This document shows, piece by piece, positions 20,490-43,408 of a stretch of 43,408 nt of DNA. The DNA comes from a virus. Each line of letters opens with the position of its first letter. The stretch's first letter is position 1. The notes under the pieces are model-generated. The model was given only the letters and a program-made list of their open reading frames with translations, was not told the DNA's origin and did not search any database. A program made the translations under genes and the position numbers. Location: IMG/VR virus record IMGVR_UViG_3300046522_000350, positions 1-43,408 of that record; one strand, 5' to 3'.

Positions 20490-20534
20490 CGCGTTTCCCC
20501 TTTTGAGTTTTCATCCGGGCCGTTCGGCCCGCTC

Positions 20535-20592
20535 TCTCGCTGACAGGTGAAACACTACGCGTTTAAACGGGGTGTGTCAAATACTAGGTTCG
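20535..20592 (-). promoter_or_regulatory. Class I array promoter for gene 20178-20489
   Basis: Minus strand: box CGAACCTAGTATTTGACA (20575-20592) containing -35 TTGACA, 17-base spacer with GTTTAAAC (20561-20568), -10 TAGTGT (20552-20557), followed by the leader tag TGTCAGCGAGA. Confidence 0.8.
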
Positions 20593-20600
20593 GCAACGAA

Positions 20601-20628
20601 GAAGGCCCCCGCCGAAGCGGGGGCCGTG
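20601..20628 (-). terminator. Terminator of array gene 3
   Basis: GGCCCCCGC-CGAA-GCGGGGGCC hairpin just after the stop of gene 20633-20863, with TTCTTCG following on the minus strand. Confidence 0.85.
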
Positions 20629-20632
20629 AGGG

Positions 20633-20863
20633 TTAGAACGGGCAGTCGGCTTCTCGGGCCAGTTCCTCGGGGGTCTTCTTCCAGATCGGGTTACGCCAGT
20701 CAAGCGGCTTCGCGTATACGCCCTTCGAGAGCGTCGGGCAGTAATCGCACTTCACCGAGAACAGGAAGGCATCCGTGCTCGGGTGGGAGACTTCCAGCCT
20801 TCCGTAATCCATGCAGGTCCAGCAGATGAATTCGGGGGTCGGGCCGTTCGTGACGTTCTGCAT
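20633..20863 (-). CDS. Small zinc-ribbon-like protein, array gene 3
   Basis: 76 aa with an AGAAGGG ribosome site. Two CxxC knuckles (CWTC at residues 14-17 and CDYC at about 39-42) predict a four-cysteine zinc ribbon; the C terminus holds W-R-N-P-I-W-K-K and ends ADCPF. It likely binds nucleic acid or a host protein, but no family is recognised. Own promoter and terminator. Confidence 0.8.
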   Translation of the reverse strand: MQNVTNGPTPEFICWTCMDYGRLEVSHPSTDAFLFSVKCDYCPTLSKGVYAKPLDWRNPIWKKTPEELAREADCPF

Positions 20864-20888
20864 TCTCTTGCCCTTCTCTCGGCCCCTC

Positions 20889-20956
20889 GGGGCCGTCTCT
20901 CGCTGACAGAAGGAACTCTAGAGCGTTTACACGGCCCATGTCAAATACTAGCTTCG
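20889..20956 (-). promoter_or_regulatory. Class I array promoter for gene 20633-20863
   Basis: Minus strand: box GAAGCTAGTATTTGACA with -35 TTGACA (20939-20944), 18-base spacer containing the variant GTGTAAAC (20925-20932), -10 TAGAGT (20915-20920), leader tag TGTCAGCGAGA at 20889-20899. Confidence 0.8.
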
Positions 20957-20965
20957 CGGAAACAG

Positions 20966-20992
20966 AAACGGCCCCCGAAGGGGCCGCCCTGG
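20966..20992 (-). terminator. Terminator of array gene 4
   Basis: GGCCCC-(C)GAA-GGGGCC hairpin directly after the stop of gene 21000-21182; the minus strand continues GTTTCTGTTT. Confidence 0.8.
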
Positions 20993-20999
20993 TTTCCTG

Positions 21000-21182
21000 C
21001 TAGCCGTTCACAACCGCCCGGCACCGGTCACACACACAGTCCCGGTCGTGGACGCTAGTGCAGTGCTCCGAGAAGGGGGACTGTCCGGCGTCGAGGACGG
21101 TCCCACAGTTCCGGCAGAAGGTGACGCTCTCTTCCACGAAGTAGAGCCACCGGTGAACACCCTTGCGAAGCGTGACGCTCAT
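21000..21182 (-). CDS. Small zinc-ribbon-like protein, array gene 4
   Basis: 60 aa from ATG 21182 with GAAGGGAAG upstream; longer in-frame starts would run into the promoter. Cysteine pairs CRNC (about 23-26) and CDRC (about 51-54) plus a CxxxxH segment suggest one zinc ribbon. The first 20 residues are basic and aromatic (KGVHRWLYFVEESVTF). Not recognised; own promoter and terminator. Confidence 0.75.
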   Translation of the reverse strand: MSVTLRKGVHRWLYFVEESVTFCRNCGTVLDAGQSPFSEHCTSVHDRDCVCDRCRAVVNG

Positions 21183-21217
21183 TCGTCTTCCCTTCGTCCG
21201 GCCCCGGTGTGGGGGCC

Positions 21218-21278
21218 GTTTCTCGCTGACAAGGAAGACTCTAGGCCGTTTAAACGAGCGTGTCAAATACTAGGTTCG
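21218..21278 (-). promoter_or_regulatory. Class I array promoter for gene 21000-21182
   Basis: Minus strand: box GAACCTAGTATTTGACA, -35 TTGACA (21261-21266), 17-base spacer with GTTTAAAC (21248-21255), -10 TAGAGT (21238-21243), then leader tag TGTCAGCGAGA. Confidence 0.8.
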
Positions 21279-21285
21279 CGGCAAG

Positions 21286-21310
21286 CAAAAGGGCCGGTCA
21301 CCCGGCCCTC
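21286..21310 (-). terminator. Terminator of array gene 5
   Basis: GGGCCGG-GTGA-CCGGCCC hairpin followed by TTTTGC on the minus strand, directly after the stop of gene 21314-21613. Confidence 0.85.
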
Positions 21311-21313
21311 GGC

Positions 21314-21613
21314 CTACTCGCTGAGTCCCTTAGCTTGCTCCCACTCCCCCACGTTCCACGCGTCCACGCGCACCACGGCGGCATCAATGCCCGCGTCCGC
21401 GTACGCGACTCGGACCGCGTGGCCGGCAGAGTGAGCTACGTCATACAGCGTGGGGACTCGAACGGTCATCGTCCATTCGCTCACGTCCGGCCAGAGTTGC
21501 GCGGTGGCCCCGTACTCGACCAGGGCACCCGTTACGCGGTCGAGCTGGTCGGCGTTCACGGCCAGATCGAACCGGGGGTGACGCACTCGGACAACGGCCT
21601 GATATTCGCGCAT
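21314..21613 (-). CDS. Hypothetical protein, array gene 5
   Basis: 99 aa, ATG with AGAAGG upstream. It looks like a small alpha-beta protein (YQAVVRVRHPRFDLAVNADQ, EWTMTVRVPTLYDVAHSAG). Not recognised. Unusually for this array it has a leader tag (TGTCAGCGAGA at 21629-21639) and a GTTTAAAC (21615-21622, next to the start codon) but no -35/-10 of its own: the tag directly follows the terminator of the upstream gene. It probably depends on readthrough. Confidence 0.75.
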   Translation of the reverse strand: MREYQAVVRVRHPRFDLAVNADQLDRVTGALVEYGATAQLWPDVSEWTMTVRVPTLYDVAHSAGHAVRVAYADAGIDAAVVRVDAWNVGEWEQAKGLSE

Positions 21614-21643
21614 GGTTTAAACCTTCTTTCTCGCTGACACGGT

Positions 21644-21670
21644 GAGGGGGGCCGGTCGCCCGGCCCCCCG
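21644..21670 (-). terminator. Hairpin between array genes 6 and 5
   Basis: GGGGGGCCGG-GCGA-CCGGCCCCCC, a very strong stem after the stop of gene 21677-21874. There is no clear U run, so partial readthrough into gene 21314-21613 is possible. Confidence 0.7.
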
Positions 21671-21676
21671 GTGAGG

Positions 21677-21874
21677 CTACAGAATCCCGAACCGCTTCGC
21701 CACGGCCTCATTATTTCTCTGGCCACGGCCCCCGGTGTTCCGGGAGATCCATTCGGCGGGCTTCGTCAGATCGTCCGGGAAGCAAAGCCAACCGTGATTC
21801 CGGCGCTCCACCTTGTACCCTGCGGCCTTGATTGCCTCGGCCAGACCTTCCGGGGTCCTCTTAACCTTCGCCAC
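21677..21874 (-). CDS. HicA-like or dsRBD-like small protein, array gene 6
   Basis: 65 aa, GTG start with GGGAGGG upstream. The protein is basic and short, with GLAEAIKAAGYKVERRNHGWLCF near the N terminus. The pattern of a helix, then a strand with K/R and HGW resembles small alpha-beta RNA-binding folds (HicA/dsRBD-like), but the match is only a visual impression and the function stays open. It is driven by a class II promoter. Confidence 0.7.
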   Translation of the reverse strand: MAKVKRTPEGLAEAIKAAGYKVERRNHGWLCFPDDLTKPAEWISRNTGGRGQRNNEAVAKRFGIL

Positions 21875-21898
21875 CGTTTTTCCCTCCCTGTCGTGTTC

Positions 21899-21944
21899 CT
21901 CGCTGACAGGAGAGACGTTACTAGTATTTGGAATCCCGCGTCAA
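21899..21944 (-). promoter_or_regulatory. Class II array promoter for gene 21677-21874
   Basis: Minus strand: -35 TTGACG (21939-21944), 18-base spacer that ends in the inverted box CCAAATACTAG, -10 TAACGT (21915-21920), leader tag TGTCAGCGAG. Compared with class I, the CTAGTATT box is reversed and moved from the -35 into the spacer. Confidence 0.75.
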
Positions 21945-22029
21945 GCGGCTAGGTCGGTTGGTTGTTGCTGTTGTCTGTTGTCTTTCCGTTTTCTCCATGC
22001 CTCGGGTGCCTAGAGCGGGTGGAGCGGAT

Positions 22030-22502
22030 TGGACCCCCCCTTGAAGCAAGCAATAGGCCCCCCACGTATGGAGGTTACTCACTTCAAGAGGGAATCCTGT
22101 TCAGTCGCACGCTCGGTACGCCTGTCACGGTATGTCGCTTACAGGACCGGTTAAGGGAATTAGCCTCACCGCAGGGCCGGGAAGTGTGATCGAAGCTAGG
22201 GGCCGCATTCCCGCCCCCTCTGCGGGGGCACCGGTCCGGGCCTGCCTTCACCCGGTTCGTTCGTCACTCGGTATGCCGTTCCCCGAAGGGCTTCTCTACC
22301 GTCCGGTGGCTGAATCCGGAGTCAGCTTTTGTTGAGGGAGAGCCGTTCTCTTACTCCCGACTGGTCCAGACTCCCCCGGTCGTCATCCGGGGGCCGTGGG
22401 GCGGCTTCCTGGGCCCGCTCTCCCTTGGCATGTCGTTTCCCCCCGGTGCCATCCGTGGGGCCGTCCTACGCGGCCACGACTCGAAGTGATCAAGCCGTGA
22501 GC
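22030..22502 (-). ncRNA. Candidate structured non-coding RNA
   Basis: The roughly 470 bases downstream of the class II promoter at 22508-22537 hold no convincing gene on either strand but many compact stems: 22480-22494, a 9-bp perfect long-range stem pairing 22335-22343 with 22417-22425, inside it CCCCCGG/CCGGGGG (22373-22393), then 22309-22326, 22269-22301 (CGGTA/TACCG closing a UUCG-type inner hairpin), 22236-22255, 22213-22229 and 22121-22145. It does not show the landmarks of tmRNA or RNase P RNA. The 3' end is uncertain; the next promoter lies at 21944. A 33-codon ATG frame (22351-22452) is the best coding alternative and lacks a good ribosome site. Confidence 0.5.
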
Positions 22503-22507
22503 CACGG

Positions 22508-22537
22508 ACGTTACTAGTATTGATCCTAGACATGCAA
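22508..22537 (-). promoter_or_regulatory. Class II promoter without a downstream gene
   Basis: Minus strand: -35 TTGCAT (22532-22537), 18-base spacer ending CAATACTAG, -10 TAACGT (22508-22513). The -10 and the preceding bases are identical to the promoters at 21915 and nearly so at 26169. A GTTTACAC (22566-22573) and a degenerate box (22577-22593) lie upstream. No leader tag follows; instead the transcript would enter the hairpin-rich region. Confidence 0.65.
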
Positions 22538-22601
22538 CCTAGACTTGGCATGACGCACGCCACACGTTTACACAGCTTCCCAATCCTAGGTACCGGACAT
22601 G

Positions 22602-22635
22602 AGAAGGCCCCCCACCAGCAAGGATGAGGGGCCGC
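22602..22635 (-). terminator. Terminator after gene 22731-22907
   Basis: GGCCCC ... GGGGCC stem with a 16-base loop, and TTCTCATG following on the minus strand. It would separate the 58-aa gene from the RNA promoter at 22508. Confidence 0.6.
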
Positions 22636-22730
22636 GGGGCCGGCAAAGCCCGAGAAGGGGCCTAGAAGGCTCTCAGGAGGCCGCAGCATCGCGCCGGACC
22701 GGACGGCCGGCAGATCGGGGCCAGGCCGTC

Positions 22731-22907
22731 TCAGGGCCGCTCAGACAGCTTCCCGAGGCATCCGGGGCATGTCGGCTCAGCCGAACCCCCGAGGGGGAAG
22801 GATGCGGCTTCACCGCACGCCGTGCGCTTCCCTGTCTGGTCGGCTTCCCAATCGACCGCGTGAGACTCGTCGGAGCCTTCGACCTGAACGAGCGTGATTC
22901 CTGGCAT
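22731..22907 (-). CDS. Small cysteine protein, 58 aa
   Basis: Frame from ATG 22907 to TGA 22731 with an excellent AGAAGGGGG site. The sequence starts MPGITLVQVEGSDESHAVDW and carries C31 and a CPGC knuckle (C47, C50), a likely zinc-binding end. It is too short for usual gene-length cut-offs but the ribosome site, protein-like composition and position between two terminators support it. It is probably expressed by readthrough from the Lsr2 transcript, as no promoter is visible in front of it. Confidence 0.75.
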   Translation of the reverse strand: MPGITLVQVEGSDESHAVDWEADQTGKRTACGEAASFPLGGSAEPTCPGCLGKLSERP

Positions 22908-22929
22908 GGTGCCCCCTTCTGGGAACGAC

Positions 22930-22958
22930 GAAGGCCCCCACCATAGGGCGGGGGCCTG
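22930..22958 (-). terminator. Terminator after the Lsr2 gene
   Basis: GGCCCCC ... GGGGGCC stem with a 10-base loop, 15 bases after the Lsr2 stop, with TTCGTCGTTCC following on the minus strand. Confidence 0.75.
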
Positions 22959-22973
22959 GTCGAGCTGGTCGAG

Positions 22974-23447
22974 CTACGCCGCAGCGTCGTACGCCTTCAG
23001 GATCTCGTCCGGCACACGTCCACGGTTGCCGAGTTCGGGCCATCCGTTGTCACGGGCCCACGTACGAACGGCGTTCAGGTCACGGGCCGGGCCGGTCGAG
23101 CCGATCCGGCGAACCGGGGTCATGCGGCCCCGAGAGACCGGACGGGCAACGCCGATGAACGGGGCCAGGGCTTCGCGGAGTTCGGCCGTGTGGTCGTCGT
23201 TCAGGTCGATCTCATACGACTTCCCATCGAGGCCGAAGAGGACAGTCTGAGTCGCCTCCGACTGGTCGAGGTCGTCAATCAGCTTTACTTCAACCCTCTG
23301 CGCCATCTGCGTTCTTTCCTTCGGGAATTCGATTACGTTCGTGGACTTCTTACCAGCGTGGCAACTACAGCCACAAGTGATCCCGCTTAGCGTGCGGACG
23401 GGGCACGTTCCGTGATGCCCCGTCATGCACCATCCGAGTTTGCTCAC
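22974..23447 (-). CDS. Lsr2-family nucleoid protein with cysteine/histidine N-terminal extension
   Basis: 157 aa from GTG 23447, which overlaps the upstream stop as GTGA. Residues 48-157 are Lsr2: a dimerisation domain (MAQRVEVKLIDDLDQSEA, FGLDGKSYEIDLND) and a C-terminal DNA-binding domain with the RGR minor-groove motif (R142-G143-R144, WARDNGWPELGNRGRVP). Lsr2 binds AT-rich DNA and silences foreign genes in actinobacteria. Residues 1-47 add C7, H11, H12, C15, C25, C27, C29 and H30, a likely metal site. A strong internal start exists at ATG 23306 (GAAGGAAAG upstream), giving a standard 110-aa Lsr2, so two forms may be made. Confidence 0.88.
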   Translation of the reverse strand: MSKLGWCMTGHHGTCPVRTLSGITCGCSCHAGKKSTNVIEFPKERTQMAQRVEVKLIDDLDQSEATQTVLFGLDGKSYEIDLNDDHTAELREALAPFIGVARPVSRGRMTPVRRIGSTGPARDLNAVRTWARDNGWPELGNRGRVPDEILKAYDAAA

Positions 23448-24118
23448 GCCCCCACCAGAGTTCCGCCGTGCGCGTGCGCGTACGCCTTCAGTACCCGCTC
23501 AGGGATTCGCCCGGTGTCCTTCACTTCGATTCCGTTCCGTCGGGCCCAAGACCGGATCAGGTGGCCGTCATTGTCCGTCTGAGCGTGCGCGGCGGTCACG
23601 GCGGGCCGAGGGGCCGGGGCCTCGAACATCGGGGCCTGAGTGGCTTCCTGCGGCTTCGCGGGAACCTCCCACTCGTCCCACGGGTCATCCGACACGGGCT
23701 CTTCGTCGTCCTGGTCGTCGGCGACCAGCTCGACCAGCTCGACCGCGACCGGTACCCGCTTCTTCACCATGTGAGTGAACAGGTGGACGGCCAGGGGGAC
23801 GGCCAGAGAAGGCACGCCCCGAATGACCGGGGCCGGAACAGTCTCGGGGAGGCTGTTCGACCAGAGCGAGTAAGCGAAGAACATTCCGGCGAGAATCCAC
23901 GGGTAGGCCGTGGCCTTCCAGCCGTAGTCACGGAGCCTGAACGCCACCCAAACCGCCACGGTGACGAAGCCTTCCACGATCAGCGGGTATATCGCGCTCA
24001 GATCGTGGTTTCCGGCACTCCCGAGGTAGACGTTCCGGAGAGCTTCGTACGAGAGCGTGAACGCCCCCGCAGCGATACCCGCCACGACGCTAGCGGCGGC
24101 TCGATCAGTCTTTTGCAT
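23444..24118 (-). CDS. DUF2637-type membrane protein with Lsr2-like DNA-binding tail
   Basis: 224 aa from ATG 24118 (GGAAGGGG upstream). Residues 9-118 hold four membrane helices (about 10-27, 43-60, 71-88, 102-118) in the layout of DUF2637 proteins known from Streptomyces plasmids. An acidic, proline-rich linker (about 120-180) leads to residues 186-224, whose WARRNGIEVKDTGRIPERVLKAY closely matches the Lsr2 C-terminal DNA-binding domain, with TGR (202-204) in place of RGR. It is the first gene of an operon with lsr2. I infer a protein that ties DNA to the membrane. Confidence 0.8.
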   Translation of the reverse strand: MQKTDRAAASVVAGIAAGAFTLSYEALRNVYLGSAGNHDLSAIYPLIVEGFVTVAVWVAFRLRDYGWKATAYPWILAGMFFAYSLWSNSLPETVPAPVIRGVPSLAVPLAVHLFTHMVKKRVPVAVELVELVADDQDDEEPVSDDPWDEWEVPAKPQEATQAPMFEAPAPRPAVTAAHAQTDNDGHLIRSWARRNGIEVKDTGRIPERVLKAYAHAHGGTLVGA

Positions 24119-24143
24119 CGGATTCCCCTTCCGGCCCTTCGGG

Positions 24144-24204
24144 CCGTTTCGCTGACATTGGGAATCTAGCACTTAACCTGATGGCATTTCAAGTCTTAGC
24201 TTCG
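24144..24204 (-). promoter_or_regulatory. Class I promoter for the DUF2637-Lsr2 operon
   Basis: Minus strand: a diverged box GAAGCTAAGACTTGAAA with -35 TTGAAA (24187-24192), 18-base spacer containing the degenerate GGTTAAGT at the usual place, -10 TAGATT (24163-24168), then TGTCAGCGA. Both regulator sites are weaker than in the other class I promoters, so this operon may be less tightly controlled. Confidence 0.65.
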
Positions 24205-24212
24205 GGGGAAAC

Positions 24213-24243
24213 GAAGAAGGCCCCCTTCCGGGGGCCTTCCTGT
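24213..24243 (-). terminator. Terminator of array gene 24244-24357
   Basis: GAAGGCCCCC-GGAA-GGGGGCCTTC followed by TTCG on the minus strand, at the stop of the 37-aa gene. Confidence 0.85.
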
Positions 24244-24357
24244 CTACTTCTCGGTTCCGATGTGCTCCCACTCGAAGCGGTGAGCGTGGTTCGGGTTCTC
24301 GTCGCACTCGTCGTGCCAGACGCAAACGAGCTTCCAGTTCGGGTCAAAGAAGTGCAT
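24244..24357 (-). CDS. Very small protein, 37 aa, array gene
   Basis: ATG 24357 with GAGAAGGG upstream. The protein starts MHFFDPNWKLVCVWHDEC and is rich in H, W, C and acidic residues; the spacing C-x4-H-x2-C with later N-H-A-H suggests a metal site. It has a full promoter, leader and terminator of its own, which is the main argument that it is real. Function unknown. Confidence 0.7.
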   Translation of the reverse strand: MHFFDPNWKLVCVWHDECDENPNHAHRFEWEHIGTEK

Positions 24358-24388
24358 TGGGTTTCCCTTCTCGGGCCGTTCGGCCCTT

Positions 24389-24443
24389 CTCGCTGACAAG
24401 AGAAACGATACTAGTATTTGGCACGCTGCGCAAGCGTGTAAAC
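24389..24443 (-). promoter_or_regulatory. Class II promoter for gene 24244-24357
   Basis: Minus strand: GTTTACAC (24436-24443) just upstream of -35 TTGCGC (24428-24433), 17-base spacer ending CCAAATACTAG, -10 TATCGT (24405-24410), then leader tag TGTCAGCGAGA. Confidence 0.7.
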
Positions 24444-24462
24444 GGTCCGAGTCGAGAAACAA

Positions 24463-24490
24463 GAAACCCCCCGCCGAAGCGGGGGGCTCC
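24463..24490 (-). terminator. Terminator of array gene 24501-24659
   Basis: CCCCCCGC-CGAA (TTCG on the RNA strand)-GCGGGGGG stem followed by TTTCTTG on the minus strand, just after the gene stop. Confidence 0.85.
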
Positions 24491-24500
24491 CTGTCGCCGA

Positions 24501-24659
24501 TCAGGCGAACGTCACATCACAGTCAAAGATGTGGGACGGGTACTCGCGGTGAAGGCGAGTGACTTCGTCTTCCATTGCGGACGCACCCTTGACGGTCCGA
24601 AGGGTCTCCAGGGAACCCGTCGAGCGGTTCGTAACGGTGATCTGGAAGGTGCGGTTCAT
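24501..24659 (-). CDS. Small hypothetical protein, 52 aa, array gene
   Basis: ATG 24659 with GAAGGGGAAG upstream. An N-terminal strand (MNRTFQITVTNRSTGSLETL) is followed by a helix (SAMEDEVTRLHREYP) and a C-terminal strand (HIFDCDVTFA), a compact beta-alpha-beta protein. Not recognised. Own promoter, leader tag and terminator. Confidence 0.75.
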   Translation of the reverse strand: MNRTFQITVTNRSTGSLETLRTVKGASAMEDEVTRLHREYPSHIFDCDVTFA

Positions 24660-24700
24660 TGTTCTTCCCCTTCGCTTCGCACCGGGCGTTTCCCGGTGTC

Positions 24701-24755
24701 TCGCTGACAAGAGAAAGCTAGCACGTTTAAACGCAGATTCCAAATACTAGCTTCG
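24701..24755 (-). promoter_or_regulatory. Class I promoter for gene 24501-24659
   Basis: Minus strand: box GAAGCTAGTATTTGGAA with -35 TTGGAA (24738-24743), 17-base spacer with GTTTAAAC (24725-24732), -10 TAGCTT (24715-24720), leader tag TGTCAGCGAGA. Confidence 0.78.
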
Positions 24756-24763
24756 AGGCAAAG

Positions 24764-24790
24764 AGAAGGCCCCCCGAAGGGGGCCGACTC
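24764..24790 (-). terminator. Terminator of gene 24793-25305
   Basis: GGCCCCC-TTC-GGGGGGCC stem followed by TTCTCTTTG on the minus strand, directly after the gene stop. Confidence 0.85.
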
Positions 24791-24792
24791 GA

Positions 24793-25305
24793 TCAGCCTT
24801 CGTACTGCGCCACCCGACGCGCCCAGTAGCGCTTAGCCGCTTCGGTGTTCGCCGAACGGGCCAGGTCTACGAAGTTCGCGGGGGCCTTACCGGGGATCTT
24901 CGCGGGCTCTTCGACCTTCGGGGCCTCGGCCTTCTGCGCGGGCTTCCTGGGGGCCTTCACGCCCTTCTTAGCGGCGATCCCGCCCGGTACCGACTCGATC
25001 TTTTCAATCTTCGCGCCACGGGCCTTCGCGTTGCGGTAGTTCACCGCGTCCTCGGGGGTGGCGGGAATCGGCTCTTCGGCCTGGCCGTTCACCGGACCGG
25101 CGAAGACGACGACACCGGTACGGGAGTGAAGAACCTCGGTGCCGTCCTCGGCGATCAGCTTCACGATTCCACGGGCCAGGAACTCGGCCCGGACGGTAAC
25201 CAGTTCCTTCTTCGGGTTCTTCCGACCAGCGGCCTTACCGCCGAAGAGGAACGCCCCCTTCTCGTCGGCCACGTTCACAGTCTCAGAGAGCTTCATGGTC
25301 TGCAT
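24793..25305 (-). CDS. Hypothetical basic protein, array gene
   Basis: 170 aa with GGGGAAG upstream. The first 70 residues look like a small beta domain (ELVTVRAEFLARGIVKLIAEDGTEVLHSRTGVVVF). Residues 105-140 are a lysine-, alanine- and proline-rich linker (KKGVKAPRKPAQKAEAPK), reminiscent of bacterial DNA-binding tails. A C-terminal helix ends RYWARRVAQYEG. Not recognised; nucleic-acid binding is possible from charge alone. Confidence 0.75.
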   Translation of the reverse strand: MQTMKLSETVNVADEKGAFLFGGKAAGRKNPKKELVTVRAEFLARGIVKLIAEDGTEVLHSRTGVVVFAGPVNGQAEEPIPATPEDAVNYRNAKARGAKIEKIESVPGGIAAKKGVKAPRKPAQKAEAPKVEEPAKIPGKAPANFVDLARSANTEAAKRYWARRVAQYEG

Positions 25306-25331
25306 TGTTTCTTCCCCTTGTTGGGTTGCTG

Positions 25332-25390
25332 TCTCGCTGACAAGGAAGAAGCTACAGCGTTTAAACGGGACTTGTCAAATACTAGGAACG
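25332..25390 (-). promoter_or_regulatory. Class I promoter for gene 24793-25305
   Basis: Minus strand: box CCTAGTATTTGACA with -35 TTGACA (25373-25378), 18-base spacer with GTTTAAAC (25359-25366), -10 TAGCTT (25349-25354), leader tag TGTCAGCGAGA. Confidence 0.8.
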
Positions 25391-25407
25391 ATCAGGCCCG
25401 GAAACGC

Positions 25408-32540: not shown

Positions 32541-32772
32541 CGCGCTCAGTGAAAGCGGCTTCGAGCCGCTTCAGTCGGATATCGAGCATGGCCGCATACA
32601 CGGCCAGGTCTTGAGCCTCTTCCCTGGCGTACTGAATCAGCTCAGTGAAGGGCATCTTCTCGAACTTCTGCCCGTCCTGCTCTTCGTACTGCTCGGCCCC
32701 GATCCCGAGGATTCGGGAACGGCAAGCACGGATGAAGTGGCTTACTTCGTCGGCCAGTTCGTCACTGGTCAT
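32533..32772 (-). CDS. Hypothetical helical protein, 79 aa
   Basis: ATG overlaps the primase stop as ATGA. The protein is helical and charged (DELADEVSHFIRACRSRILG ... YAREEAQDLAVYAAMLDIRLKRLEAAF). The REEAQDLAVYAAMLD segment resembles the metal-binding helices of MazG-like nucleotide pyrophosphohydrolases, but too little is present to be sure. Small proteins like this are common in actinophage replication operons. Confidence 0.7.
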   Translation of the reverse strand: MTSDELADEVSHFIRACRSRILGIGAEQYEEQDGQKFEKMPFTELIQYAREEAQDLAVYAAMLDIRLKRLEAAFTERGN

Positions 32773-33377
32773 CGCTTGATCTCCAATCGGTCGAGAAGGG
32801 CGTCAGTGCCGTTCTCTAGGACGAACGAATTCACGTCGTGTCCGGCCGGCATGGGGCTGATTCGAGCGCTCTTGATCTGCTCGGCGACCTTTTCGGCGAA
32901 CTCCATTCCCTGTCCCTTGTCGTCCTGGTCGGCGAGAATGTAAACGGCCTTATAGCCCTTGAAGCACCGGGCGAAGTAGGGCTTCCATGCGCTCACACCA
33001 GCGATACCGATTGCCGGTATTCCGGCTTCGTTCGCGGCTATCGCGTCGAACTCGCCTTCACAGATGGCGATATGGTCCGAGGGGACGAGAAGCGCATTCG
33101 CGTTGTAGATACGCGGGGGGTCACCGGGAACGCTGCGGTACTTCGGTCCGTCCCCGTCCCCGAGTCGCCGGAATCGCACGGTAACGACCCCGGCCCTAGT
33201 GAGGTACGGGACCGAGAGCATTCCTCGCGCTGTTTCATGCCCCGGCAAGGGGCTTTCGACGTAGCCCAGCCTGAAGGATGCTGCGCTGTCCTCGGACAGG
33301 CCCCGACTCTTCAAATACGCCACGGCGGCGGGGCTTCTCGTTAGGTCCCCCTCGTATCGCGCCGTAGCTTCCTCCAA
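32769..33377 (-). CDS. DNA primase, TOPRIM part (second half of split primase)
   Basis: 202 aa from TTG 33377. The TOPRIM motifs are visible: ICEGEFDA (catalytic glutamate) and LADQDDKGQG (DxD). The N-terminal SPAAVAYLKSRGLSEDSAASFRLGY is the usual linker after a primase zinc domain. The zinc domain itself lies in another reading frame (33235-33624), and this frame is open upstream only to a TAA near 33436. Its start codon lacks a good ribosome site, so either a frameshift joins the halves or the two are made separately. Confidence 0.85.
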   Translation of the reverse strand: MEEATARYEGDLTRSPAAVAYLKSRGLSEDSAASFRLGYVESPLPGHETARGMLSVPYLTRAGVVTVRFRRLGDGDGPKYRSVPGDPPRIYNANALLVPSDHIAICEGEFDAIAANEAGIPAIGIAGVSAWKPYFARCFKGYKAVYILADQDDKGQGMEFAEKVAEQIKSARISPMPAGHDVNSFVLENGTDALLDRLEIKR

Positions 33378-33671: not shown

Positions 33672-34094
33672 TCAAAGAACGGGGAAGACCCGGATTAGCG
33701 CTCCCGGTTCCTCGCCCTGGTCGGCGTAGACCTTATGGGCATAGAGCTTCACCACTTGGGCGTCATCGCGATACGCGCCACCCATACGCAACGCGTCGAG
33801 CGTCGAGCGACAGAGCTTGTCGAGGTCGGGATACCGGTCCGGATACGCGGGGGCCTGGTCCCTCAGAAGGTGCGCGAAGCGGCCCGTACGGTAATGCCCC
33901 TTCGGACGCTTCAGACGGAACCACACGGCCACACCGACGAACGGCCAGGGGCCGAAGGTGTGCTTCTCAGTCTCGGCCGCCACGGCGCTTCGCCACGGCT
34001 TGACCTTCTTCGAGGACTCCACCATTCGGCCCCCGCCAACATGCCTCTTACTTCCCTGGGGTGCAGGGGTGCCGATCACGTCTATCTCGATCAC
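33672..34094 (-). CDS. RusA-like Holliday junction resolvase
   Basis: 140 aa, GTG start overlapping the helicase stop as GTGA. The RusA pattern is present: GTPAPQGSKRHV at the N terminus, KPWRSAVA, then PDLDKLCRSTLDAL and YRDDAQVV with the conserved metal-binding aspartates. RusA cuts branched DNA formed during recombination and replication and helps prepare DNA for packaging. It lies between the helicase and primase genes. Confidence 0.9.
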   Translation of the reverse strand: MIEIDVIGTPAPQGSKRHVGGGRMVESSKKVKPWRSAVAAETEKHTFGPWPFVGVAVWFRLKRPKGHYRTGRFAHLLRDQAPAYPDRYPDLDKLCRSTLDALRMGGAYRDDAQVVKLYAHKVYADQGEEPGALIRVFPVL

Positions 34095-34885
34095 CCGGTG
34101 AGCCTCATTCGCTCCATGTCGGCATCTAGATAAAGGATCATCGCGCCGGACGCGTCCGCCTTCCCGGTACGGTTCTTCACGACGGAAACGCCCATCTGTC
34201 GAGAGCCGTCTTCGCCGATCCGGTGAAGGGTCAGAATCATTTCCGGCACGCGGCCTATCTGCCCCTTGATCTGAGACAGGGGAACGGGCTGGTTACCGTC
34301 GTTGCTGTCGCCCTTTACGTGGTGCAGAGCGACCACGCACGCACCCGTCATACGGGCAAGCTCATGAAGGTACTCACAGACCTTTTCCAGGGCGACGTAA
34401 GAGCTACTGTCGCCCTCGGCGTCCGGGACCACATTGGACAGGTTGTCCACGATGATCAGTTCGGGCCACATGCCATACGTGACCGCGAAAGCCTTCAGCT
34501 CGCCTTCTAGGTCGTCAATCGTGAGGGATGCGGTGAAGTCCCACCGGAGATGATCGAAGCCGTCTAGCTGAGCTTCTACGGCCTTCGTGTTGCCATGCTC
34601 TAGGGCGTTCTCGATATCCCGAGTTGCCCAACCGGAGACGTTCGCAGCACACCGAACAAACATCGTTTGGGGGTCGGTGTCCGCGCTGAAATAGAAGGCC
34701 GGCACACGGGCGTGAAGAGCCAGGGCCATACTCAGGGCGGATTTACCGACACCGGGGGCCGCAGAGATGATCGTGAACTGTCCTCGGCGGAAGTGCACGG
34801 TATTCGCGGCGAAGGTCTTGAAGAGGACAGGAAGGGGCTCACCGGTTTTTCCGGCGTCGCCCTTAGCTCGAACAATCGTGTACAA
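34091..34885 (-). CDS. DnaB-like replicative helicase (RecA-fold ATPase)
   Basis: 264 aa, TTG start with AAGGA upstream. Walker A SAAPGVGKSA (K48), an ADTDP-type segment after strand 2, Walker B ELIIVDNLS (D147) and a later ALHHVKGDSN (His sensor). It lacks the N-terminal domain of full DnaB, so it is a compact core ATPase, as in several phage replication modules. It works with the split primase next to it. No DNA polymerase gene is present, so host replicase is probably used. Confidence 0.88.
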   Translation of the reverse strand: MYTIVRAKGDAGKTGEPLPVLFKTFAANTVHFRRGQFTIISAAPGVGKSALSMALALHARVPAFYFSADTDPQTMFVRCAANVSGWATRDIENALEHGNTKAVEAQLDGFDHLRWDFTASLTIDDLEGELKAFAVTYGMWPELIIVDNLSNVVPDAEGDSSSYVALEKVCEYLHELARMTGACVVALHHVKGDSNDGNQPVPLSQIKGQIGRVPEMILTLHRIGEDGSRQMGVSVVKNRTGKADASGAMILYLDADMERMRLTG

Positions 34886-38572: not shown

Positions 38573-38742
38573 CATAGCTTCAAATGGTTGTACGCGCGAG
38601 TAAGGAAACGCAGTTTCCAAAGTTCACTAATCGTAAACGCGTTCGATTAGCAGTGTTCGAACAGCCTTGACGGCCCCCCGTGAGGGGCCTACCGTTACGT
38701 GTTAAGCCGCACGTTTCCGCAGGTCAGAGGCCGTTTCTTAGT
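38573..38742. other. Repressor-integrase gap with inverted repeats, candidate attP
   Basis: Between the repressor and the integrase promoter. It contains GGAAAC-GCA-GTTTCC (38604-38618), CTAATCG-N10-CGATTAG (38627-38650) and GGCCCC-N5-GGGGCC (38672-38688). It is AT-richer than its surroundings and carries no gene. Tyrosine integrases usually act beside their gene, so attP is most likely here, with the inverted repeats as core or arm sites; no tRNA-like 3' end is evident. Confidence 0.4.
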
Positions 38743-38745
38743 TGT

Positions 38746-38775
38746 AGTCAAGTATAGGTTCAATGCTAGTATCGG
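38746..38775 (+). promoter_or_regulatory. Possible regulated integrase promoter
   Basis: On the + strand CAATGCTAG-TATCGG mirrors the spacer end and -10 of the class II promoters, with a diverged box GTCAAGTATAGGTTC (38747-38761) at the -35 place. The -35 itself is poor, so activity may need an activator. Confidence 0.45.
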
Positions 38776-38842
38776 GCTCAGCCGAGGCCCCCCGATCTGC
38801 GGATACGCGGGAAGCTATGACTTGACAGAAGGACCGCCAACC

Positions 38843-39883
38843 ATGGCCCGTACCGCTACGCCAAAACTTAGTTTCGCGAAGGAAACCTTCATCCGGCAGA
38901 GGTGCGCCACCACCACGTCACGACAGACCCGGTACAGCTACGTCAGTCTTCTGAACCGCTTCGAGAAGGTCATGAAGGACTGCCACACGGGCTCGATTCG
39001 GGCTCATCACCTCGAAGACTGGTGGTATGGCGAAGGGGGCCTGTCGGACACGGCAGGGAGTCAGACCCTCGGCAACTACCGCAACTCGATGAAGCAATTC
39101 CTGTCGTTCTGCTACCGCCGAGAGTGGAACCCCTACGGTCCGGAAATCCTTCTCGACGGCATCCGCGAGAAGTCCACCAGGACCAACCGGAACCGGTACC
39201 GCATGACTCGGGCGGAACTTCGTCGGCTCATTGCTGCGGCCGAGGACCCGCGAGACATCGCCCTGATTTGCTTCGTAGCGTGCACGGGCGTTCGCATCTC
39301 CGAAGCCCTCGGTATGAGGTATCGGGACGTGTCTTTCTCGAAGGGAGAGCTTTACGTGTATCTCCCGAAGGTGAAACAGGAAGTCGTGTATCCCCTGGCC
39401 TCGGATCTCGAACAGGCCCTTCGGGAGTGGCTTACCGCCTATTCGGCTCAGGTCGGCAAGCTGAAGCCGACTTACTACCTGTTCCCGACTATGCACGGAC
39501 GGAAGTTCACGAAGGGCGGGGGGTGGAGTCCGGCCGGTCTCTACAATCCCGTAAACCCGATCCAACAGCCTCGGATCATCCTTGCGCCGATTGCTGAGCG
39601 GGCCGAAATCGAGCTTGAAGAGGGCGACGGGTGGCACACCGTGCGCCGGTCGTTCGCGCGCATCCTGTATGACGACTGTGTCGCCATGGGGCACGATGCG
39701 GCCCTTCGAGTCGTTCAGGCCGCCCTCAATCACGCGAGTGTGCAGACGACGGAGCGCTACCTAGGGTTGAACCTCGAACGGCAACAGTTCCATCGGATCA
39801 TGAAGGGACAGCCGTTCCTCACGGCGGACGTTGACCCCGGTAAGATTGTGGCGTTGGACGAGCGAAGGGCGGGCCGTGGCTAG
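38843..39883 (+). CDS. int: Tyrosine integrase
   Basis: 346 aa from ATG 38843, which has AGAAGGA upstream; an in-frame extension to 38699 would pass through the promoter region. It integrates and excises the prophage. N-terminal SAM-like core-binding domain (about 10-110) and catalytic domain with R151 (CTGVRISEAL), K178 or nearby lysine, H265-x-x-R268 (WHTVRRSF), H297 (ALNHASVQTT) and nucleophile Y306 (TERYLGL). The rightward orientation, against the neighbouring early genes, is typical of a lysogeny module. Confidence 0.95.
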   Translation: MARTATPKLSFAKETFIRQRCATTTSRQTRYSYVSLLNRFEKVMKDCHTGSIRAHHLEDWWYGEGGLSDTAGSQTLGNYRNSMKQFLSFCYRREWNPYGPEILLDGIREKSTRTNRNRYRMTRAELRRLIAAAEDPRDIALICFVACTGVRISEALGMRYRDVSFSKGELYVYLPKVKQEVVYPLASDLEQALREWLTAYSAQVGKLKPTYYLFPTMHGRKFTKGGGWSPAGLYNPVNPIQQPRIILAPIAERAEIELEEGDGWHTVRRSFARILYDDCVAMGHDAALRVVQAALNHASVQTTERYLGLNLERQQFHRIMKGQPFLTADVDPGKIVALDERRAGRG

Positions 39884-43264: not shown

Positions 43265-43337
43265 GGGAACGTAGCTCAGTTGGAAGAGCTACCGGGTGAA
43301 ATCCGGTGCGTCGGGGGTTCGAATCCCTCCGTTCCCA
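43265..43337 (+). tRNA. tRNA-Phe(GAA), complete
   Basis: Acceptor GGGAACG/CGTTCCC, D arm GCTC ... AGC, anticodon stem ACCGG/CCGGT with loop GTGAAAT (anticodon GAA), T arm with TTCGAAT. 73 bases; CCA is not encoded (ACAG follows). Base 32 is G instead of the usual pyrimidine. It is the full copy of the gene that is cut at the window start. Confidence 0.92.
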
Positions 43338-43408
43338 CAGTGGGGTAGCTCCCCTGTTCCTGAAACTCCCCCTGATCAGGGGATGGAGGGAACGCGCGCT
43401 TCGTCTAG
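43282..43408. repeat. Terminal direct repeat, right copy
   Basis: Identical to bases 1-127. It starts inside tRNA-Phe and ends inside the D arm of tRNA-Glu, so features here duplicate those at the window start. Confidence 0.9.

Follow-up and report, generated by a model that had tools for sequence, protein, structure and literature searches.

What does a phage transcribe from a promoter that is followed by no gene? The window, the whole 43,408-nucleotide stretch of viral DNA analysed here, contains a minus-strand promoter facing a hairpin-rich region between two genes of the same strand, which encode an Lsr2-like nucleoid protein and a protein of 65 amino acids (Table 1). The original prediction, made from the letters alone, had read this region as a new phage non-coding RNA. 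A direct terminal repeat of 127 bp (1-127 and 43282-43408) indicates that the window record represents a circular genome of ~43.3 kb. The virus is a temperate phage of Streptomyces type, with a gene set of terminase, portal, capsid, tape measure, ribonucleotide reductase, primase, DnaB-like helicase and tyrosine integrase, the last being its equipment for integration. Genes for tRNA-Glu and tRNA-Phe are also carried on the record. A relative of the phage, in genome G002, is an integrated prophage that has an integrase of its own and borders on host genes; in G001, no convincing attachment-site repeats turned up when they were searched for.

Table 1 Features of the RNA locus and of the window phage
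Feature	Position	Strand	Remarks
RNA promoter: -35 TTGCAT (22532-22537), 18-base spacer, -10 TAACGT (22508-22513)	22508..22537	-	
Conserved upstream element GTGTAAACGTGTGG	22560..22573	-	GTGTAAACG unchanged in 8 sequences
Structured non-coding RNA, ~510 nt	21990..22503	-	putative start from the -10 and putative end from the conserved closing helix
5' hairpin, loop and length variable	22475..22499	-	consensus-structure helix 1
5' arm of long-range closing helices, adjoining conserved ACGACATGCC (22427-22436)	22415..22432	-	
3' arm of closing helices (CACCCGCTC ... CACCCGAGGCATGG)	21996..22018	-	
Hairpin GGCCCC..GACG..GGGG, strong covariation	22373..22393	-	helix 8
Hairpin with compensatory changes, conserved AGAGAACGGCTC in loop	22336..22358	-	helix 9
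Core domain, model R1, 139 nt	22114..22252	-	common to Streptomyces plasmids and mycobacteriophage origins
Core helix GGCAGgCCCGGaCCGG / CCGGcCCTG	22171..22245	-	around variable hairpin 22213-22229
Core hairpin, conserved loop UAAUUCC	22149..22170	-	compensated stem variation in all three groups
Long 3' hairpin, 28 pairs, G7 tract at end	22032..22096	-	helices 19 and 20
Downstream gene, 65-aa protein	21677..21874	-	kept in all close relatives
Separate promoter of the 65-aa gene: TTGACG, 18 bases, TAACGT	21915..21944	-	kept in homologues
Upstream gene, Lsr2-like nucleoid protein	22974..23447	-	
Phage primase	32769-33377		
Phage helicase	34091-34885		
Tyrosine integrase	38699..39883	+	PF00589, E 2.7e-19

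The promoter and its surroundings

The promoter lies on the minus strand exactly as it had been predicted, in position, hexamers and spacing. TTGC, TAACGT and the 18-base spacing are unchanged across all nine aligned sequences. The motif ATACTAGTAACGT has two exact copies in the window (22508-22520 and 21915-21927) and two more with one mismatch, and sites with up to three mismatches number 12 against 3.0 expected. The end of the spacer, ATACTAG, is identical in the promoter of the 65-aa gene.

The wider region, 20500-25400, holds repeated intergenic minus-strand promoters of a TTGACA-17-TAGAGT-like form, with the palindromic GTTTAAAC between their hexamers; a conserved CTGTCAGCGAGA leader follows each. 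The arrangement resembles an array of repressor operators combined with a sequence tied to the start. The GTGTAAACGTGTGG element upstream of the RNA promoter is possibly an operator half-site akin to the GTTTAAAC arrays. At 23444-24172, adjoining the Lsr2-like gene, a DUF2637 domain is fused to an Lsr2 DNA-binding domain.

Covariation supports a structured RNA with no coding frame

Syntenic relatives were found by a search with the neighbouring Lsr2-like protein, and in seven of them the RNA region is 75-88% conserved (BLASTN); further copies came from one virus contig and from Streptomyces genomes. Our covariation alignment comprises 11 sequences, the window and ten full-length homologues from Streptomyces phages and prophages. 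Its consensus structure has 119 pairs, with 97.7% of cells paired, and 24 of the 119 pairs change on both sides. The covariation score of 0.185 compares with 0.094 +/- 0.005 in shuffles, none of 500 shuffles reaches it, and shifting the pairing partners along the alignment abolishes the signal; the structured RNA proposed for this locus is thus borne out. At paired positions, 85 G-U cells stand against 11 C-A cells, an excess that fits the minus-strand transcript as the working molecule. The minus-strand fold beats all 100 dinucleotide shuffles (z -3.3), and the plus strand folds no better than its own (z +0.4).

The region had also been described as lacking a convincing gene, and the homologues agree: of 91 indels, 85 are out of frame and just 6 have a length divisible by three, and no open frame is maintained across the homologues. 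The conserved RNA reaches further than the predicted limit of 22030, to ~21990, owing to the pairing of 22422-22432 with 21996-22006; most pairs of this closing helix never vary, which leaves covariation neutral on it. The UUCG hairpin singled out earlier is present in the window and proves to be a variable appendage, missing from several homologues. As had been stated, there is no tmRNA signature, and neither ARAGORN nor Rfam reports a tRNA or tmRNA in the region. Rfam as a whole gave no match at gathering score and none that was meaningful at relaxed thresholds, and BLASTN of the window RNA against phages and plasmids returned none.

The core is homologous to mycobacteriophage replication origins

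Most extrachromosomal prophages of cluster A mycobacteriophages lack RepA (Wetzel et al. 2020, PMC7157519). Their origins are ~600 bp long, transcribed without coding and divergent from parA; the origin region alone lets a plasmid replicate, with no phage protein needed, and parABS is not required for replication from it (PMC7157519). Deletion of the region destabilises lysogeny and leaves lytic growth unaffected, the Alma origin region being dispensable for lytic growth (PMC7157519).

Motifs shared between the Streptomyces and the mycobacteriophage RNAs are visible by eye, and nhmmer gave weak matches on the core alone. At full length nhmmer gave no match between the two groups, and covariance models were therefore built. 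Model R1, which describes the 139-nt core, was built solely on Streptomyces sequences, 21 in all, from phages and plasmids. Its top match is the origin, on the strand that is transcribed, in all 12 mycobacterial or Gordonia phage loci examined (Alma, RedRock, Gladiator, LadyBird, seven other mycobacteriophages and Gordonia phage Daredevil), with E values of 1.9e-6 to 0.011 against 0.34 for the next best match, and falls inside the mapped origin wherever one is mapped. These twelve matches are not independent, because the mycobacteriophages are related to one another, and the weakest of them, in LadyBird, ArcherNM and Daredevil, would be insufficient alone. The negative controls gave no match: the best score was 13.4 bits in Streptomyces phage Joe and 10.2 bits in RepA-dependent Miko, which has repA at the place where other mycobacteriophages have the RNA origin. 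The window RNA itself scores 153.7 bits.

The reciprocal model R3, built from mycobacteriophage sequences, finds the window RNA (E 8.2e-8; next best in the window 13.2 bits) and six of seven plasmids (E 2.7e-11 to 3.3e-4); since it inherits the structure of R1, it tests sequence more than structure. Among the mycobacteriophage sequences alone, in an alignment that had been fitted to the structure, 7 of 18 pairs of the core structure show compensatory changes, mostly in its hairpin. Model R2 of the 5' domain has no match in the mycobacteriophages; its best matches lie in the negative control, so that E values of ~0.03 from such short calibrations are meaningless, and homology is thus shown for the core only. 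Most mycobacteriophage RNAs do have the motif ACGACAYGCC close to their 5' end.

Judged from sequence and covariance models, then, the core of the window RNA is homologous to the RNA-based replication origins of cluster A mycobacteriophages. Of the new phage non-coding RNA originally proposed, a structured, phage-borne molecule absent from Rfam stands; given this homology, its novelty is limited to the Streptomyces branch and the structure and does not extend to the kind of RNA. Gordonia phage Daredevil, of 90 kb, has its copy of the core (L097, 1501-1714) close to the terminase, in a gap of 1.2 kb, with no annotated ParA in the stretch surrounding it.

Streptomyces plasmids carry relatives of the RNA

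Distant relatives came to light only when 394 Streptomyces genomes were searched and a profile HMM was then applied. Two distant copies (E ~1e-27), one of them on plasmid A2-16 p1, lie in surroundings without any protein common to the window. In other Streptomyces plasmids, of 31-80 kb, the RNA sits in unannotated intergenic gaps; the plasmid carriers are A2-16 p1, HNM0561, S. longwoodensis, S. chartreusis, S. malaysiensis and others. With strict filters, the core model finds one copy each in 8 of the 394 Streptomyces genomes, and in a 397-genome sample of the phylum it finds the centre genome only. A locus in Streptomyces regalis (L060, 3889-4165) has just the 3' half of the RNA and looks like the remnant of a lost element.

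As in the mycobacteriophages, a divergent ParA-like gene adjoins the RNA in the A2-16, HNM0561 and S. longwoodensis NBC_00731 plasmids; these calls are weak CbiA-family matches (E 0.004 and 3e-5) below the Pfam cut-off, that for HNM0561 being made through 68% identity to the A2-16 protein. The proteins scanned from the A2-16 plasmid include none recognisable as a replication initiator; a MobF relaxase is encoded on A2-16 p1. A2-16 also has a small ribbon-helix-helix gene, a candidate copy-number regulator, directly before the extra upstream sequence and the RNA.

A probable origin of replication

The shared core, together with the known activity of its homologues, makes an RNA-based origin the best reading, and by analogy with the extrachromosomal cluster A prophages we consider it probable that the window RNA is the transcript of such an origin. 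The transcript would fold while being made, its 3' part could stay paired with the template or re-invade it as an R-loop, and it might then prime DNA synthesis or open the duplex for the phage helicase and primase; the R-loop, priming and helicase-loading steps are modelled on ColE1-type priming. Similarity searches detected no ParA or ParB in the window phage or its relatives, linked parABS being the usual companion of RNA-based prophage origins. Given the integrase and the undetected ParA and ParB, the origin would probably act in the replication that follows induction or infection, not in plasmid maintenance, unless the phage can also persist in plasmid form. That the Alma region is dispensable for lytic growth calls for caution here, as by analogy it weakens a lytic role for the window RNA. 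The integrase, the undetected parABS and the integrated G002 prophage all count against the origin reading.

Hairpin-rich single-strand replication sites occur on plasmids, and with the MobF relaxase of A2-16 p1 they lend some sense to the idea that the conserved structure acts as single-stranded DNA, as a single-strand origin or primosome site, and not as RNA. We regard this as quite unlikely: a conserved promoter precedes the structure, both the G-U excess and the folding favour the transcribed strand, and the homologous mycobacteriophage region is transcribed on the same strand (PMC7157519). The RNA might instead act in trans, as a scaffold, protein-binding or anti-defence molecule, and start no replication, the mycobacteriophage origins then consisting of such an RNA plus an origin. 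A promoter that stands alone with no attached gene, carriage by unrelated elements and occurrence in a phage that integrates would all suit such an RNA; its likelihood is nevertheless low, though not negligible, as protein-free homologues suffice for replication in cis (PMC7157519) and the RNA is missing where RepA is present (Miko).

The two remaining explanations seem to us highly improbable. The RNA lies on the same strand as the 65-aa gene and, in close relatives, at a near-constant distance from it, as would a leader or attenuator; however, a conserved promoter of the gene's own follows the RNA, and plasmids and mycobacteriophages carry the RNA with other neighbours. This candidate was rejected on a relative (L080) that keeps the gene and a TAACGT promoter and in which no RNA was found at that place. 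Size, phage location and rich folding recall the ornate large RNAs GOLLD and ROOL, a kinship at which the original prediction had hinted; it is left unsupported, as the Rfam searches gave no match at gathering score and no meaningful one at relaxed thresholds.

The preferred reading of an RNA-based origin admits a broader form, for and against which we see the balance as even: one ancient, mobile, RNA-only replication module with no initiator protein would be common to Streptomyces phages that integrate, conjugative plasmids of Streptomyces and plasmid-like prophages of mycobacteriophages, and would have passed between them independently of every protein gene. In the literature searched, RNA-based origins are functionally known only from one mycobacteriophage group, with position and sequence described and no structure. 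That search, with subscription papers outside its scope, found no described structure or Streptomyces member; an earlier description as a plasmid origin is possible. New here are the covariation-supported structure, the relatives on plasmids and the occurrence in Streptomyces phages that have an integrase and no detected ParABS. The class of RNA-based origins would thereby extend to another genus and to plasmids, with a covariation-supported core structure, and its mechanism becomes testable in laboratory strains of Streptomyces. Such an origin could explain the replication of some Streptomyces plasmids without a recognised Rep gene and would provide new vector origins.

Comparison with known systems

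Like the window RNA, GOLLD and ROOL are large, structured and phage-borne, but by Rfam models they have no similarity to it. ColE1 RNA II is a primer, and the resemblance to the RNA proposed here is one of a large folded transcript that would prime or open an origin, with no sequence relation claimed. ColE1 has an antisense RNA I; a promoter scan of the RNA region found no plus-strand promoter, and no counterpart of RNA I was found. The RNAs of the Streptomyces plasmids are clearly homologous to the window RNA in core and 5' domain over ~500 nt, whereas they differ in having ~400-500 nt of extra conserved upstream sequence (L082, L086-L093) and other neighbours.

The closest comparison is with the cluster A origins. 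The window phage differs from the cluster A mycobacteriophages in host genus, in its tyrosine integrase and in having no detected ParABS, and the 5' domain of its RNA, unlike the core, is not recognisably related to their origins. The origins of Alma, RedRock, Gladiator and LadyBird are, like the window RNA, non-coding, ~500-600 nt long and free of an attached initiator gene, and they have the homologous core with its long-range helix and UAAUUCC-type hairpin. Several cluster A mycobacteriophages (L098, L099, L103) also share with the window phage an Lsr2-like gene near the RNA.
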